A stretch of 64,000 nt of DNA from a bacterium. GTDB taxonomy: Bacteria; SZUA-79; Acidulodesulfobacterales; Acidulodesulfobacteraceae. Made by a program: the position numbers and the translations under genes. Shown here in pieces: positions 55,295 to 63,839 of the stretch. Under the pieces are notes generated by a model. It was not told where the DNA came from. It was given only the letters and a program-made list of their open reading frames with translations, and made no database searches. The stretch is from the NCBI GenBank assembly GCA_021825865.1, contig JAKAFU010000002.1:1-64000 (forward strand). The letters are read 5' to 3'. Position 1 is the stretch's first letter; every line of letters begins with the position of its first letter.

Positions 55295-55735
55295 TTATGT
55301 TTGTTCTGTAATAATTATTTCCTCAATAATCGGCTTGTTAATTTTATCTGGCATCAAATAATTTTTAATATCGGCGACATCTTCTAATCTGCTGCCTTTT
55401 ATGGAAACGATTGTATAAGAGTAATATGGCCATGAAGCGCCGATATCGGTATTTGAAGGAACAGCCGGATGATTAGGGTGAGAATGATAGAACCCTATTA
55501 CTTCTATATTTTCTTTTCTTGAAAGTTTGTCTATTTCAAGCATATCCTTAGGTTCAATTTCAAATGCATCCCATGCTATTTTTCTGTATTTATTCTGTGC
55601 CGGAAATATTTTTGTTATTTTCTTATTATCGCCGTCAAAGATGCCGAGCATAGCTCCGCAGGCTTCATAAGGAAAAATTTCGGCAACATGTTTTTTAATT
55701 ATAGTTAAATTTTCTTTAGAAATTATCAGCGGCAT
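55295..55735 (-). CDS. JAMM/MPN metalloprotease (Mec/HcyD-like)
   Basis: A 146-residue JAB1/MPN domain with the full JAMM motif: Glu24 (FPYEACGAMLG), His84 and His86 (GFYHSHPNHP), Ser94 and Asp97 (SNTDIG). Prokaryotic JAMMs of this size remove C-terminal residues or adducts from ubiquitin-like sulfur carriers (Mec in Mycobacterium, HcyD in Wolinella), or serve in Urm-like systems. A MoaD-NIL fusion and an E1-like ThiF/MoeB are encoded 7-8 kb away. The gene lies downstream of arsR on the same strand. Confidence 0.87.
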   Translation of the reverse strand: MPLIISKENLTIIKKHVAEIFPYEACGAMLGIFDGDNKKITKIFPAQNKYRKIAWDAFEIEPKDMLEIDKLSRKENIEVIGFYHSHPNHPAVPSNTDIGASWPYYSYTIVSIKGSRLEDVADIKNYLMPDKINKPIIEEIIITEQT

Positions 55736-57744: not shown

Positions 57745-58137
57745 ATGAAATTATGTATTCCTACGGTAAGTTTTGAAGGGGTCAAAGTAAGTAAACATTT
57801 TGGAAATGCTCCGTACTTTTTTATTTATGATACGGAAAATGAAACATCTGAAATAATTTCTAATTCCAATAAGATTCATGAGCACAATATGTGTAATCCA
57901 ATCGGTGTTATTGCAGAGAAAAATGTCGATGCCGTCGTATGTTTCGGTATAGGCGAAGGCGCGATAAGAAATCTTAAGAGAGGCGGAATTGATGTTTTTA
58001 AAACTGATAGAAATTTAGTTTCCGAAGTGCTGCAGGACAGTAAAGATAATAAATTCAGCAATTTTGAAGAAGGTCACATATGCAGCGAACATGACAATCA
58101 TCATGGAAACAGCAGCGATATTCATGCATGTCATTAG
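57745..58137 (+). CDS. NifX/NafY-like (FeMo cofactor-binding fold) protein with His/Cys tail
   Basis: 130 residues of the dinitrogenase iron-molybdenum cofactor domain: MKLCIPTVSFEGVKVSKHFGNAPYFFIYDTE, NPIGVIAEKNVDAVVCFGIGEGAIRNLKRGGIDVFKT. The C-terminal 25 residues are rich in His, Cys and acidic residues (EEGHICSEHDNHHGN, HACH), a possible metal-binding extension. It is not the nif-block NifX (12209-12586) and resembles proteins of the orange-protein and MTH1175 type. AAGGAG is upstream. It pairs with DUF134. Confidence 0.87.
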   Translation: MKLCIPTVSFEGVKVSKHFGNAPYFFIYDTENETSEIISNSNKIHEHNMCNPIGVIAEKNVDAVVCFGIGEGAIRNLKRGGIDVFKTDRNLVSEVLQDSKDNKFSNFEEGHICSEHDNHHGNSSDIHACH

Positions 58138-58168
58138 TATCATTATATAATTTAAAGTTTGCATCAAT

Positions 58169-58286
58169 AGAAGGGGACGGAATTTAGTAATTAAGCGCTG
58201 TTCGTGCAGTTTTTTCGATAAAACAAAAGGCAAATGTCCTTAGAATTTAATCGGTGCTAAAAGATAAAATAAATCCGTCCCCTTTT
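58169..58286. mobile_element. REP/MITE-like element with GGGGACGGA arms
   Basis: AGAAGGGGACGGAATTT (58169-58185) and AAATCCGTCCCCTTTT (58271-58286) are inverted arms sharing AAGGGGACGGA exactly, ~118 bp apart. The GGGGACGG-type arm resembles those I associate with REP-like repeats mobilised by IS200-like REP-associated tyrosine transposases; that association is from memory. No transposase is inside, so this would be a non-autonomous copy. The right arm ends at the stop codon of the cofH-like gene. Confidence 0.5.
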
Positions 58287-58288
58287 AT

Positions 58289-59389
58289 TTAAATATAGTT
58301 ATAAAGAGTATCTCTTCTGACCGGATTTTTTCCGGCTGATTTTATAAGAGACACTATATCTTTTTCACTGAGGTACTCGCCGAAGCTGCCTCCGGCACTT
58401 TTTGTGATATTCTCTTCCATGAGTGTTCCGCCGAAATCGTTAATTCCGCATGAAAGGGATTGAACGGCAAGTTCCGTGCCTATTTTAGGCCAGCTTGTCT
58501 GAATATTTTTAAAATTATTTAGATATAATCTTAATATAGCGTAAAATTTTAGTATTTTTTGACTATCGGTATTAATACCTGTTTTAATCTGATGTTTTAA
58601 TGAAGTTTTTGATGCAATAAAAGGCAAAGCAATAAATTCTGTAAAACCGTTTGTTGAATCCTGAATTTTTCTTATTAAATCAAGATGGTAAACTATATCG
58701 GCGTTTGACTCAATGTGTCCGAGCAGAATAGTTGCCGAAGATTTTATATCCATTTTATGCGCAGTTTTAATGATTTCAGTCCATTGGGGTGCGGATATCT
58801 TGTCTTTGCATATTGCTTTTCTCGTTTCAGGCGCTAAAATTTCAGCAGCTGTTCCAGGCATTGAATTAAGTCCGTTTTCTTTTAAAATTTCAAAAACTTT
58901 CTCAAACGAAAAGCCTGTTTTGGCAGAAAGTTCAAAAATTTCCTGCGGAGAGAATGCGTGTATATGCAGTTTCGGAAAAGCGGCTCTTATATCTTTAATT
59001 AAATTAAAATAAAAATCAGGATTAAAATCGGGATTTATGCCTCCGGTTACGCAAACCTCAGTTATACCGATATTATAGCCTTCATTTATTTTTTCAATAA
59101 TTTTCTCGATTGTTAAAACAAATGAGTCCTTTGAATTGACAGTTCTTTTATATCCGCAAAATTTGCAGTTCAGATAACAGATATTTGTAAAATTAATATT
59201 TCTATTGACCACATACGAAACGTTATCGCCGTTTACGGATTTATTAAGACAAGCTGCGTATTGTATAATTTCGTTAAAATTTTCATTATCATTAAGCAGA
59301 TTTGACAGTTCATCGCTGTTTATCCGTTCGGATTTATTAATCTTATCAAAGATATTGTCTAAATTATGATATTTGTTTATGTTTATCAT
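58289..59389 (-). CDS. CofH-type radical SAM enzyme at the ThiH position of the thi operon
   Basis: Radical SAM motif at Cys71, Cys75 and Cys78 (VVNRNINFTNICYLNCKFCGYKR). Further blocks are TEVCVTGGINPD, HAFSPQEIFEL, MPGTAAEIL, LGHIESNADIVYHL, GFTEFIALPFI, GGTLMEENITKSAG and RRDTLYNYI. These match CofH (FO synthase subunit 2) better than ThiH, MqnC or MqnE. CofH uses tyrosine and 5-amino-6-ribitylaminouracil, releasing 2-iminoacetate. It is the third gene after thiS and thiG, under a TPP riboswitch, where ThiH is expected; ThiH also makes 2-iminoacetate (dehydroglycine) for ThiG. Its true role, F420 or thiazole synthesis, is unresolved. Confidence 0.8.
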   Translation of the reverse strand: MININKYHNLDNIFDKINKSERINSDELSNLLNDNENFNEIIQYAACLNKSVNGDNVSYVVNRNINFTNICYLNCKFCGYKRTVNSKDSFVLTIEKIIEKINEGYNIGITEVCVTGGINPDFNPDFYFNLIKDIRAAFPKLHIHAFSPQEIFELSAKTGFSFEKVFEILKENGLNSMPGTAAEILAPETRKAICKDKISAPQWTEIIKTAHKMDIKSSATILLGHIESNADIVYHLDLIRKIQDSTNGFTEFIALPFIASKTSLKHQIKTGINTDSQKILKFYAILRLYLNNFKNIQTSWPKIGTELAVQSLSCGINDFGGTLMEENITKSAGGSFGEYLSEKDIVSLIKSAGKNPVRRDTLYNYI

Positions 59390-59434
59390 ATTTTTATATA
59401 TTAAGATTGCAAAAAATATAAAAATTTATTTATA

Positions 59435-60244
59435 TTAAAACACGATTCCTTCCATTTGCGTAGAAGCAGATGCATATAATTTCATCGGAATTCTCCCAGA
59501 TAAAAAAGCCAGCCTCCCGGCTTTGACTGCGTAATTCATCGCCAGAGCCATATTCAGAGGATCTGTAGCTCCGGCTATCGCAGTATTCATTAAAATTCCG
59601 TCAACTCCTAACTCCATAGTTTTTGCAGCATCGGATGCGGTACCCACCCCTGCGTCAACTATTACCGGAATAGAAACAGTTTCTTTTATTATTTTTAAAT
59701 TATAGGGATTTCTTATTCCCAAACCGGAACCTATCGGCGAAGCAAGAGGCATTACAACAGGACAGCCAATGTCCTCAAGTTTTTTTGCGACGATGGGGTC
59801 GTCAATAATATAAGGCATAACCGTAAATCCTTCATTTACCAGAATCTTTGCAGCTTTTAAGAGTTCTTCGTTATCAGGATAAAGAGTCTTGGGGTCGCCT
59901 ATAACTTCCAATTTTACAAGGTCGGTTTTAAATATGCCAAGTTCGCGGGATAATCTTATCGTGCTGACAGCGTCTTCAGCTGTAAAACATCCTGCGGTAT
60001 TCGGCAAAAGGGTATATTTATCCTGGTCAATAAATGATAGCATATTTTCTTTCTGTTCAAAATCGATACGTCTTATTGCAACAGTTATAATTTCTGCGCC
60101 GGAAAGTTCTATCGCTTTTTGCATGGTGACAAAATCCGGATACTTGCCCGTCCCGACTATTAAACGCGACTTAAAAGAATATTTGCCTATTTTTAATTTG
60201 TCTTCAAAATTGGTTGTCATATGATTATTGGGTATTATAGCCAT
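59435..60244 (-). CDS. thiG: Thiazole synthase ThiG
   Basis: A TIM-barrel enzyme that forms the thiazole ring of thiamine from DXP, the ThiS thiocarboxylate and 2-iminoacetate. Hallmarks: [94 protein letters not shown] and [31 protein letters not shown]. 269 residues; the N-terminal ~10 residues are extra. It lies 55 bp after thiS and 45 bp before the cofH-like gene. Confidence 0.96.
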
Positions 60245-60299
60245 GTATTCCCCCTTTTGATATTATTAGTAAAATATTTTATTTTATAATTAAATAAAA

Positions 60300-60500
60300 T
60301 TATCCGCCCGGTGCGATTGTTACAAGGTCTAATCTGTCTTTATCTTTCAGGATAAATTCTGCATATTTTGCCTTTGGTACGATTTCTTTATTAACTGCAG
60401 CCGCCGTACTTTTAATATTGAGATTAAGACTGTCTATGAGCTGGGCTATAGTTAAGTTTTCATTCAAATTGATTTCTTTATCGTTTACGTAAATTAGCAT
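60300..60500 (-). CDS. thiS: Sulfur carrier protein ThiS
   Basis: A 66-residue ubiquitin-fold protein ending in VTIAPGG, with the C-terminal Gly-Gly that is thiocarboxylated. It starts MLIYVNDKEINLNENLTIAQLIDSL. It donates sulfur to ThiG. The E1-like MoeB/ThiF protein at 62480-63295 is the likely activating enzyme. It is the first gene after the TPP leader. Confidence 0.93.
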   Translation of the reverse strand: MLIYVNDKEINLNENLTIAQLIDSLNLNIKSTAAAVNKEIVPKAKYAEFILKDKDRLDLVTIAPGG

Positions 60501-60623
60501 AATTTATTCTTTTATAATTAAAGCCGTTTAGTTTTATTATTTATTTTATTTACCTGCGATAACATTTGTTTGTTAAATATTAAATAATTAATAAAATAAA
60601 GAGAGTTATTTGTAAAAAAAAGA

Positions 60624-60671
60624 CAAAAAAAAATCCTTAAAGCTGTTATATAGAAATTTCAGCCTTAAGGA
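60624..60671 (-). terminator. Rho-independent terminator in the thiS leader
   Basis: A 12-bp stem (60634-60645 with 60660-60671; one G-U pair in the RNA) is followed on the minus strand by a T-rich run. It lies between the TPP riboswitch and thiS, 124 bp before the thiS start, so it is the likely attenuation point. It is ~260 nt away from the aptamer, which is longer than usual. Confidence 0.7.
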
Positions 60672-60718
60672 CCGCTTTTATATTTATTTAATAAATTTAA
60701 ATTAATTCAGAATATGTC

Positions 60719-60745
60719 AGTTATATATACTGTGTATATATAACT
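60719..60745 (-). repeat. 12-bp hairpin between TPP aptamer and terminator
   Basis: AGTTATATATAC and GTATATATAACT form a perfect stem with a 3-base loop. As it lies between the aptamer and the terminator, it may be part of the expression platform. Confidence 0.4.
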
Positions 60746-60934
60746 ATCTGCATCCGTTTATTATATCTGCGTATATTTATTGATTACCCGCCGCTGTTAT
60801 TAAAGTTTAAAACTAAAATCAAAACTAAGAATTATAACGTGCGGTTAAATCAATTTATACTAATAAGATATGCAGCATGACATAATTTCAAAATTATTCT
60901 GAACTATTGTTTGTTATGTAAATAAGTTTACAAG

Positions 60935-61062
60935 CTTTCCTTCGCTGGTATTGTCCATATTCAGGTTCAGAGGGTTCCGGATATATAAATAAATCCAATC
61001 TCAGCCTTTTATGTATATTTTCAATCGTGCAATTGAAACTGTACGTTGAAACAGGCACCCCT
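60935..61062 (-). promoter_or_regulatory. TPP riboswitch (THI element)
   Basis: On the minus strand, all conserved pieces occur in order: GGGGTGCC (61061-61054), a P3a-type hairpin (TTTCAAT...ATTGAAA), GGCTGAGA, then ACCCTCTGAACCTG, and finally ATACCAGCGAAGGAAAGC at the 3' side. These match the pyrimidine- and pyrophosphate-sensing arms of the thi box. It would repress thiS-thiG-cofH when thiamine diphosphate is abundant. The remaining part of the 655-bp gap (60501-61155) is AT-rich, with the terminator and hairpin listed separately. Confidence 0.93.
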
Positions 61063-61155
61063 AGCATTTATATCTTAAATATATAATATCATATTAATAT
61101 CGGTTAGTCAACAACTTGCAGCGTGCAAAGGGCAATAAATTTTATCATTCTAAAA

Positions 61156-62112
61156 TTAAAACATATCTTTGAAGACAACTGTCGATAAATATCTGGAACC
61201 TGTATCCGGCAAAACCGTAACATAGTTTCCTTTGTATTTTTGAGAAAGTTTATATACCCCATATAAATTAGCGCCCGAAGAAAAACCGCATAAAAGTCCT
61301 TCTTTTTTTATAAGCTTTTTCAGCATTGAATAACTGCCTTCCGTGTCAACTTTCACGTAATCATCTATAATATTATTATGAGCAAAACCTTTAAAATTAA
61401 ATGAATAGTTATATTTCCAGCCCTCTATGCCGTGCATCGGACTGTCAGGTATCACCGCTATAATTTTAATATTTTTGTTATATTCTTTTAATCTTTTTCC
61501 GGCGCCGAGAATTGTTCCGCCTGTTCCTATACCGGTCACAAAATAATCAATATTGCCGCCTGTTTGTTCAATAATTTCTGCTGCCGTAGTTTCATAATGC
61601 GATATGGCATTATTCGGGTTGTTATATTGGTCGGGCATATAATAGAGAGCAGTTCCGCCGGTTTTATATTCTTCGAGGGATTTTTTTATAGCACCGTCAT
61701 GACTTTCTTCGGCAGGGGTCAGAATTAATTCTGCACCGTAAAGTTTTATAAGCTGTTTACGCTCTTCGCTCATATTAGAAGGGGCGTATATTTTTACCTT
61801 AAGGTTTAAAAATGAACCTATCATAGCATAGGAAATGCCGGTATTGCCGGAAGATGAATCGATTATAGTCATATTTTGTTTAAGAATATTCTTATTTATT
61901 GCATCCTTCAGCATATAAAATGCAGGTCTGTCCTTAATTGAACCGCCGGGATTCTGAGATTCTGTTTTAGCGTAAACTTTAGAACCGTCAGAACCGTTAA
62001 ATAAATTATCTAATAAACAAATATTCGTTCTGCCTATAGAATTAAATATATTTAAACTTAAAAAATTTAATTTATATTTTAAATCGTTTTCAGTTTTTTC
62101 TTCTTTTGACAT
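61156..62112 (-). CDS. Cysteine synthase (CysK/CysM family)
   Basis: A fold-type II PLP enzyme: SQNPGGSIKDRPAFYML (PLP lysine), DSSSGNTGISYAMIG, GIGTGGTILGAGKRLKEYN and a C-terminal LPDTGSRYLSTVVF. It forms cysteine from O-acetylserine (or O-phosphoserine) and sulfide or a protein thiocarboxylate. The neighbouring sulfur-carrier genes hint at CysM-like use of a carrier; that is inference. 318 residues. It lies 10 bp after tusA. Confidence 0.9.
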   Translation of the reverse strand: MSKEEKTENDLKYKLNFLSLNIFNSIGRTNICLLDNLFNGSDGSKVYAKTESQNPGGSIKDRPAFYMLKDAINKNILKQNMTIIDSSSGNTGISYAMIGSFLNLKVKIYAPSNMSEERKQLIKLYGAELILTPAEESHDGAIKKSLEEYKTGGTALYYMPDQYNNPNNAISHYETTAAEIIEQTGGNIDYFVTGIGTGGTILGAGKRLKEYNKNIKIIAVIPDSPMHGIEGWKYNYSFNFKGFAHNNIIDDYVKVDTEGSYSMLKKLIKKEGLLCGFSSGANLYGVYKLSQKYKGNYVTVLPDTGSRYLSTVVFKDMF

Positions 62113-62122
62113 TATGATTTGT

Positions 62123-62368
62123 TTATTTTTTTAAACCGTTTTTTTCGACTATTATTTCATAATCGGTATCGTTTATTTTATTTATGGAAACCACCTTGTG
62201 TCCCTGTTCCTCCATAGAGCGGGGAACATTTCTTATGGCAGGTTCATAATCTACTATTATTCGCAGTATTTCGCCTTGATTTATTTTTTCTAATGCAAGT
62301 TTGGATCTGACAAAAGTAAAAGGGCATATTTCGCCTTTAATATCTAATTCACTATTGTATTCAGCCAT
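62123..62368 (-). CDS. TusA-like sulfur carrier
   Basis: 81 residues of the SirA/TusA family: LDIKGEICPFTFVRSKLALEKINQGEILRIIVDYEPAIRNVPRSMEEQGHKV. The active-site Cys is in CPFTF, replacing the common CPxP; CPFT is seen in several family members. It passes persulfide sulfur to other proteins. Between moeB and the cysteine synthase gene. Confidence 0.87.
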   Translation of the reverse strand: MAEYNSELDIKGEICPFTFVRSKLALEKINQGEILRIIVDYEPAIRNVPRSMEEQGHKVVSINKINDTDYEIIVEKNGLKK

Positions 62369-62479
62369 TATAATACGTTCTCCGACAAATTTTATTTTAT
62401 ATTTTTGTATATTTTTATTAAATTAAAAAATGCTCATTGCGGTTAAATAGTAAAAATAGCTCACTGTATTGCAATTACA

Positions 62480-63295
62480 TCAAGCTTTAAATTCGCATAA
62501 TTCTTCATATTCTATCAGCTCGACTACCGTCGGATTTTCTCCGCAAAGCGGACAAGTCTTGTCTTGTCTCAGTTTCATTTCTGTAAATTTCATATCTAGG
62601 GCATCGTATATTAATAATCTGCCGTTTAATGTCGTCCCAATGCCCAGTATTATTTTTATGGCTTCGTTTGCCTGTATTGCTCCGATAACACCCGGCAATA
62701 CGCCCAAAACGCCGGCTTCTTGGCAGCTTGGAACTAATCCTGCCGGCGGAGGCGAAGGGAATAAACACCTGTAGCAAGGACCATTGTCGGGCAGAAACAC
62801 TGTCGCCTGTCCGTCAAATCTAAAAATAGAACCGTAAACAAGGGGTTTTCCGTAAAAATGGCATGCATCGTTAATCAGATATCGTGTAGGAAAATTATCG
62901 GTAGCATCTATTATTACGTCATAATCTGCAATAAGTTCCTGTATATTGTCGGAAGATATTTTTTCTTTATATGTTATAACTTTGACATCGGGGGTAATCC
63001 TTTCAATAGAATCTTTTGCCGAGTCGACTTTATATCTTCCTACGTCTTTATTACCGTGCCATATCTGTCTTTGCAAGTTTGAAAGGTCAACAGTGTCAAA
63101 ATCGGCTATGCCGAGTGTCCCTATTCCTGCAGCTCCTAGATATAAACCGCACGGAGCTCCTAAACCGCCTGCGCCTATCAAAAGGACTTTAGAGGATAAT
63201 AATTTTTCCTGACCTTCTCCGCCGACCTCAGGCAATATTATATGTCTGGCGTATCTTTTAATCTGTTCTTCCGTAAAATCCAAAATGACCTCCAC
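62480..63295 (-). CDS. E1-like adenylyltransferase MoeB/ThiF
   Basis: 271 residues: KVLLIGAGGLGAPCGLYLGAAGIGTLGIADFDTVDLSNLQRQIWHG (ATP-binding), DATDNFPTRYLINDAC, CYRCLFPSPPPAG...CPLCGENP (two CxxC Zn pairs), and the family catalytic loop around SCQEAGVLGVLPGVIGAIQANEAIK. It adenylates the C-terminal Gly of ThiS/MoaD-like proteins so sulfur can be added. No rhodanese domain is fused. Candidate substrates here are ThiS and the MoaD-NIL fusion. Confidence 0.92.
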   Translation of the reverse strand: MEVILDFTEEQIKRYARHIILPEVGGEGQEKLLSSKVLLIGAGGLGAPCGLYLGAAGIGTLGIADFDTVDLSNLQRQIWHGNKDVGRYKVDSAKDSIERITPDVKVITYKEKISSDNIQELIADYDVIIDATDNFPTRYLINDACHFYGKPLVYGSIFRFDGQATVFLPDNGPCYRCLFPSPPPAGLVPSCQEAGVLGVLPGVIGAIQANEAIKIILGIGTTLNGRLLIYDALDMKFTEMKLRQDKTCPLCGENPTVVELIEYEELCEFKA

Positions 63296-63323
63296 TCATA
63301 AAATAACGTAAATAAAATTTAAT

Positions 63324-63839
63324 TTATTCAATGATATCCAATACGATAGGCTCAACGCTCACGCCTTTAGATTCTAGGAATTTTATTGCTTTTTCTATAT
63401 CTGTCTGTTCACCTTCGACTTCAAGAGCAATTATACCTATATCGTTAGAAATACTGGCACTTCTGATGTTAGTTATTATATTGTAATTTTTACCTATTAA
63501 ATATATCAGCGGGTCTTTAATTACTTCCTGAGGATAATTTAAATAAAATTTTTTTTTTTCTGAAGTTCCCCCCGCAATTGCAGGTATTATAGAAATTGTA
63601 TCTCCGTCTTCTACCTTTGAATCGTTATTGTCTATAAATCTTATATCTTCGTCGTTTAAATAAACATTAACGAATCTCCTGACCTGGTCATTTTTTTCGC
63701 ATATTCTTTCTTTTATTCCGGGATAAGTTTTTTCAAGGTCGTTAATAATTTCTAAAATATTAGTTCCCGCAGCATCAACTTCCGATTTGCCTCCGGTTAA
63801 TGTTCTTAAAGGCGTCGGTATTCTAACAATTATAGCCAT
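63324..63839 (-). CDS. MoaD/ThiS-like sulfur carrier fused to a NIL domain
   Basis: Residues 1-91 are a MoaD-type ubiquitin fold (VRIPTPLRTLTGGKSEVDAAG, VNVYLNDEDIRF, GDTISIIPAIAGG). The Gly-Gly is followed by TSEKKKFYLNYP and a NIL (ACT-like) domain (IYLIGKNYNIITNIRSASISNDIGIIALEVEGEQTDIEKAIKFLESKGVSVEPI). Because the Gly-Gly is internal, activation would need either cleavage or another mechanism. NIL domains occur in anaerobic homocysteine synthesis proteins and in MetN. It lies upstream of moeB, tusA and the cysteine synthase gene. Confidence 0.88.
   Translation of the reverse strand: MAIIVRIPTPLRTLTGGKSEVDAAGTNILEIINDLEKTYPGIKERICEKNDQVRRFVNVYLNDEDIRFIDNNDSKVEDGDTISIIPAIAGGTSEKKKFYLNYPQEVIKDPLIYLIGKNYNIITNIRSASISNDIGIIALEVEGEQTDIEKAIKFLESKGVSVEPIVLDIIE

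Follow-up and report, generated by a model that had tools for sequence, protein, structure and literature searches.

How ThiG obtains its 2-iminoacetate is the question raised by an operon near one end of the window, i.e., the whole 64-kb stretch of DNA analysed here. Two enzymes, ThiH and ThiO, are recognised as providing this compound to ThiG. In the window, a gene of the CofH type follows thiS and thiG under a TPP riboswitch; CofH ordinarily serves in making the deazaflavin cofactor F420. A gut-genome survey has listed 89 genomes in which ThiG and the other pathway enzymes are present but ThiH and ThiO are not, and ascribed them to a 'yet unknown enzyme/route' (PMC6593275). Whether a CofH-type enzyme could be such a route is considered below.

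The operon and its conservation in the family

The minus strand reads TPP riboswitch, hairpin with U run, thiS, thiG and CofH-type gene; the gene order given in a preliminary description of this DNA was borne out by cmscan and profile scores. The operon leader starts with the TPP riboswitch aptamer (RF00059; 60920..61072, minus strand), which scored 62.4 bits (E 7.5e-10) and lies above the gathering score of 54.3. A promoter-like site is found 5′ of the aptamer (61083..61111, minus strand), with TTGACT and TATTAT separated by 17 nt and a TG before the -10 (10/12 consensus positions). The promoter scan gave more sites than shuffled sequences did, yet this is weak evidence. The stretch separating the aptamer from thiS contains a hairpin with a U run behind it (60625..60673, minus strand), which probably forms the terminator arm of the riboswitch's expression platform; the RNA fold of 60612-60685 has an energy of -19.6 kcal/mol (z -4.14), and none of the shuffles was equally good. 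Next come thiS, encoding a sulfur carrier protein with a C-terminal GG (60300..60500, minus strand; TIGR01683, 66.7 bits vs 37.45), and thiG, encoding thiazole synthase (59435..60244, minus strand; PF05690, 363 bits). The last gene (58289..59389, minus strand) encodes a radical SAM protein of 366 amino acids that NCBIfam scores, the tree, the thiSG linkage and an AlphaFold model mark as CofH-derived and as the proposed 2-iminoacetate synthase for ThiG. Since the downstream neighbour lies on the plus strand (57745-58137), converging on the operon, and the upstream gene (61156-62112) stops short of the riboswitch, thiS, thiG and the CofH-type gene look like a separate transcription unit.

Two further features of the window deserve mention. 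An inverted repeat with 19-nt arms 86 nt apart (58166-58289; motif GGGGACGGATTTA) lies directly 3′ of the cofH stop codon and could be either a terminator or a small element of the REP type. Besides, the regions 55295-55735 and 61156-63839 encode a JAB-domain protease, a cysteine synthase, TusA, a ThiF/MoeB-type E1 and a MoaD/ThiS-NIL fusion, a set that looks like a sulfur-carrier route to cysteine or methionine. A SAM riboswitch is present upstream of this set in G001, G003 and G004.

The family, whose members are uncultivated, was sampled with 30 genomes, all of them MAGs of 59-100% completeness, and 25 of them (G000-G024) were searched fully. Orthologues of the CofH-like gene occur in 27 of the 30, and in 26 of these 27 the gene adjoins thiS-thiG, in the same orientation and with little space between the genes. 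Owing to this recurrence, the arrangement is not chance. The window's genus (g1) has the order thiS-thiG-cofH. In the other genera the order is cofH-thiS-thiG, the CofH-like gene being the first to follow the riboswitch; the G010 lineage is the exception. A TPP riboswitch above the gathering score precedes the operon in 21 genomes, and in three genomes of genus g4 it falls slightly under that score (51-54 bits). As for the remaining linked loci, the one in G008 is truncated by a contig end and the one in G041 gave no riboswitch match. In G010, about 36 kb separate the CofH-like gene from a TPP-thiS-thiG unit, and the gene is not preceded by a TPP riboswitch. Since the tree unites G010 with g1, the genes may perhaps have been separated and later rejoined, and this would suggest that their linkage is under selection. 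As all carriers belong to a single clade, the linkage counts as one evolutionary origin. Separately, the thiS-thiG spacers of G002 and G006 (L059 and L060) are unusually long at 383-432 nt, whereas those of the other genomes in the genus measure about 60 nt.

Family identity and gene content

The window protein passes the CofH models TIGR03551 (418 bits, cut-off 374) and PRK07360 (427, cut-off 426) and carries the CX3CX2C motif (C71/C75/C78). It fails the NCBIfam cut-off for CofG, stays under those for MqnC (361 vs 428) and MqnE (336 vs 435), and scores 22.8 bits with the ThiH profile TIGR02351 (cut-off 380). In an IQ-TREE phylogeny of 92 proteins, the CofH-like proteins of the family form one clade (100/100) that is nested in CofH (100/99 against MqnC/MqnE). 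The scores and the tree together rule out an ordinary MqnC/MqnE paralogue; paralogues of that type are present elsewhere in the same genomes. The sister group of the clade consists of the CofHs of G070, G347 and G215 (98/91), followed by other bacterial and Lokiarchaeal CofHs, and the stem branch of the clade is long (0.74). The preliminary description had set its proposal against an ordinary CofH whose position is not conserved in relatives; the protein is indeed placed in CofH, but its adjacency to thiS-thiG is conserved throughout the family. Outside the family, Methanohalophilus euhalobius (L106) has two tandem CofH-type genes behind CofG, the second on a longer branch.

The family clade keeps 66 of the 69 sites conserved in CofH. 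At the other three a substitution has become fixed (F80Y, Q115T and M222L); other CofH subgroups show 0 to 2 such changes. Residues F67, C113, T180, E251 and K302, invariant in CofH and absent in MqnC/MqnE, are kept in 23/23 family copies. With these 66 sites and every CofH-only invariant residue retained, CofH-type chemistry is probably retained as well. An AlphaFold model built from 23 sequences (pLDDT 91, pTM 0.90) found its best structural match in MqnE (TM 0.88, 34% identity), and ThiH structures, including the tyrosine-bound form, gave TM values of 0.70-0.71 at 13% identity. Conserved sites and predicted structure thus favour a retained cleavage of tyrosine.

Statements on absent genes are based on profile searches of the family MAGs against NCBIfam cut-offs, and the ThiH/ThiO controls in E. 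coli, B. subtilis and others responded as expected. In the 25 family genomes, no protein reached the ThiH cut-off of 380; the best scored about 39 bits, and the matches at or below this value were the CofH-like gene (on top), its paralogues of the menaquinone type and various minor radical SAM matches. No ThiO (TIGR02352) was found at its cut-off of 251 in the same 25 genomes, the DAO-family genes of G001, G006 and G019 being far under it at about 70 bits. A hidden ThiH or ThiO, or the separate thiH or thiO that had earlier been named as an argument against replacement, is therefore not seen above cut-off in these genomes. The full cof set named along with them is missing too, as CofG never exceeded its cut-off in 30 family genomes (the 25 and five more) and CofD gave no match in the 25. 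The CofG search works, because it detected CofG at 290-316 bits in G070, G347 and G215, the closest CofH genomes outside the family. Moreover, G003 (5 contigs, 99%) and G009 (7 contigs, 97%) are near-closed, which makes MAG incompleteness a poor general excuse for the absences.

Of the 25 genomes, 23 contain ThiG, and precisely these 23 also contain the CofH-like gene; G014 and G021, both incomplete genomes, have neither. ThiC is present in 24/25, and a ThiE-like gene adjoins thiC in the window's genome. Nearly every family genome has a second ThiC, for example at L205:3495-4853 (G000, contig C8), next to a gene resembling cobyrinic acid a,c-diamide synthase. This copy scores as ThiC and under the BzaB cut-off, and is possibly related to the B12 lower ligand.

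Outside the family, thiG or thiS accompanied CofH at none of 75 loci among the matches listed (at least 80 loci in the scan). Within a sample of 386 genomes, no outside CofH was closer than 48%, and the three best outside CofHs lie away from thi genes. The sister genomes G215, G347 and G070 have a TPP-thiG-thiE-thiD-thiC operon without ThiH (L196, L197 and L198). Full-length DAO-family proteins of the sister genomes score 117-150 bits, under the ThiO cut-off of 251, and their genes adjoin recA and ferredoxin-like genes outside the thi operon. In these CofG-bearing genomes, one CofH may serve both F420 and thiamine.

Proposed recruitment of CofH for thiamine and competing explanations

Our best explanation, to which we give a probability of about 85%, is that a CofH-family tyrosine-cleaving enzyme has come to provide ThiG with 2-iminoacetate in place of ThiH (and ThiO). 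Such a replacement of ThiH had been suggested in the preliminary description; the absence of ThiH and ThiO above cut-off and the family-wide thiSG linkage support it, the activity being predicted from gene context and family chemistry. CofH reportedly releases 2-iminoacetate as one of two fragments of tyrosine (Philmus et al. 2015). The abstraction of a hydrogen from the amine of tyrosine by CofH, and the p-hydroxybenzyl radical to which tyrosine then fragments, have been described (PMC8498797), and dehydroglycine, since it hydrolyses in water, is handed from ThiH to ThiG (PMC9046217). As CofH and ThiH yield the same fragment and ThiH hands it over to ThiG, we propose that the present protein feeds ThiG.

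The lineage would have started from an ordinary CofH that lost its partner CofG and was then recruited. The nesting in the tree and the CofG of the sister genomes indicate that the gene descends from a genuine CofH that was one half of an FO-type pair, with CofG probably lost. In the proposed reaction, the 5′-deoxyadenosyl radical would abstract hydrogen from the amine of tyrosine, the Cα-Cβ bond would break, and 2-iminoacetate (dehydroglycine) would pass to ThiG together with ThiS-thiocarboxylate and DXP; TPP would shut the synthesis off through the riboswitch. For the 4-hydroxybenzyl fragment, the favoured option, with about an even chance, is addition to 5-amino-6-ribitylaminouracil as in CofH. 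Quenching to p-cresol as in ThiH seems less likely, and transfer to another acceptor rather unlikely. We infer the reaction, the hand-over to ThiG and the fate of the benzyl radical from gene content, linkage, riboswitch, phylogeny and conserved sites. A broader statement can be made tentatively, at somewhat below even odds: CofH chemistry could constitute a third, unrecognised route to 2-iminoacetate, in which the CofG-less enzyme is dedicated to thiamine while the riboflavin precursor 5-amino-6-ribitylaminouracil possibly still serves as its radical acceptor, and the sister genomes may share one CofH between F420 and thiamine.

Other explanations have to be weighed against this recruitment. 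The CofH adduct might still be made for a deazaflavin (FO or F420), F420 and thiamine being merely co-regulated, an alternative that had been raised earlier. The passing of the CofH equivalog cut-offs and the preservation of all CofH-only invariant residues would agree with it. Yet known chemistry offers no way from the adduct to FO unless CofG is present, the linkage is to thiSG rather than to cof genes, and co-regulation is disfavoured because CofG (30 family genomes) and CofD (25) are missing; we regard it as highly improbable. Somewhat less remote, though still unlikely, is that an unrecognised enzyme makes the 2-iminoacetate and that the CofH-like protein has a different role in thiamine synthesis or a connected pathway, e.g., the formation of a different tyrosine-derived product. 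Genomes with ThiG and without ThiH, ThiO or a known substitute do exist (PMC6593275), and the sister genomes G070, G347 and G215 likewise have ThiG without ThiH. Such an enzyme would, however, leave aside that the CofH-like gene is under TPP-riboswitch control, stands as first gene beside thiS-thiG, tracks ThiG exactly and stems from a family that cleaves tyrosine.

The least credible explanation is that of a relic or passenger without any selected role in thiamine synthesis. The confinement to a single lineage and the location of the gene outside the operon in G010 might suggest so. Nevertheless, the gene is full-length with its active-site residues conserved in 23/23 copies, it stays linked across the genera under either gene order, and none of the 25 genomes tested lacks it while having thiG.

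No literature that links CofH with ThiH, iminoacetate or thiazole synthase was found in our search, which covered literature outside subscription; a review of mycobacterial flavins was the one paper with both CofH and a riboswitch. The present enzyme would be a member of the CofH family at work in a new pathway, and it offers a concrete third candidate source of 2-iminoacetate for ThiG that is open to test. It would also be a case of a cofactor-pathway enzyme retained for its former by-product. Furthermore, a cofH annotation by itself is no proof of F420 production, as the gene passes the CofH equivalog cut-offs in genomes without CofG and CofD.

Comparison with known systems

The window enzyme resembles CofH, or the C-terminal domain of FbiC (TIGR03551, FO synthase subunit 2), in family, tree position, CX3CX2C motif and CofH-only invariants, and the same cleavage of the tyrosine Cα-Cβ bond is expected of it. 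It differs from CofH by a genome without CofG and CofD, a TPP riboswitch with thiS-thiG, a long stem branch and the three changes F80Y, Q115T and M222L fixed in its clade. It is outside the CofG/CofH FO-synthase system, because the defining partners CofG and CofD were looked for and not found. MqnE is its nearest solved structure (TM 0.88, 34% identity), but the protein scores below the MqnE and MqnC cut-offs, and the tree places it with CofH. With ThiO (TIGR02352) it would share the product for ThiG, whereas ThiO is an unrelated flavoenzyme that needs oxygen and is not above cut-off in the family. By sequence it is not ThiH (TIGR02351; 22.8 bits vs 380, and 13% identity to ThiH structures); nevertheless, it is like ThiH in its TIM-barrel kind, in its proposed product and in the operon slot that it holds beside a TPP-regulated thiS-thiG.
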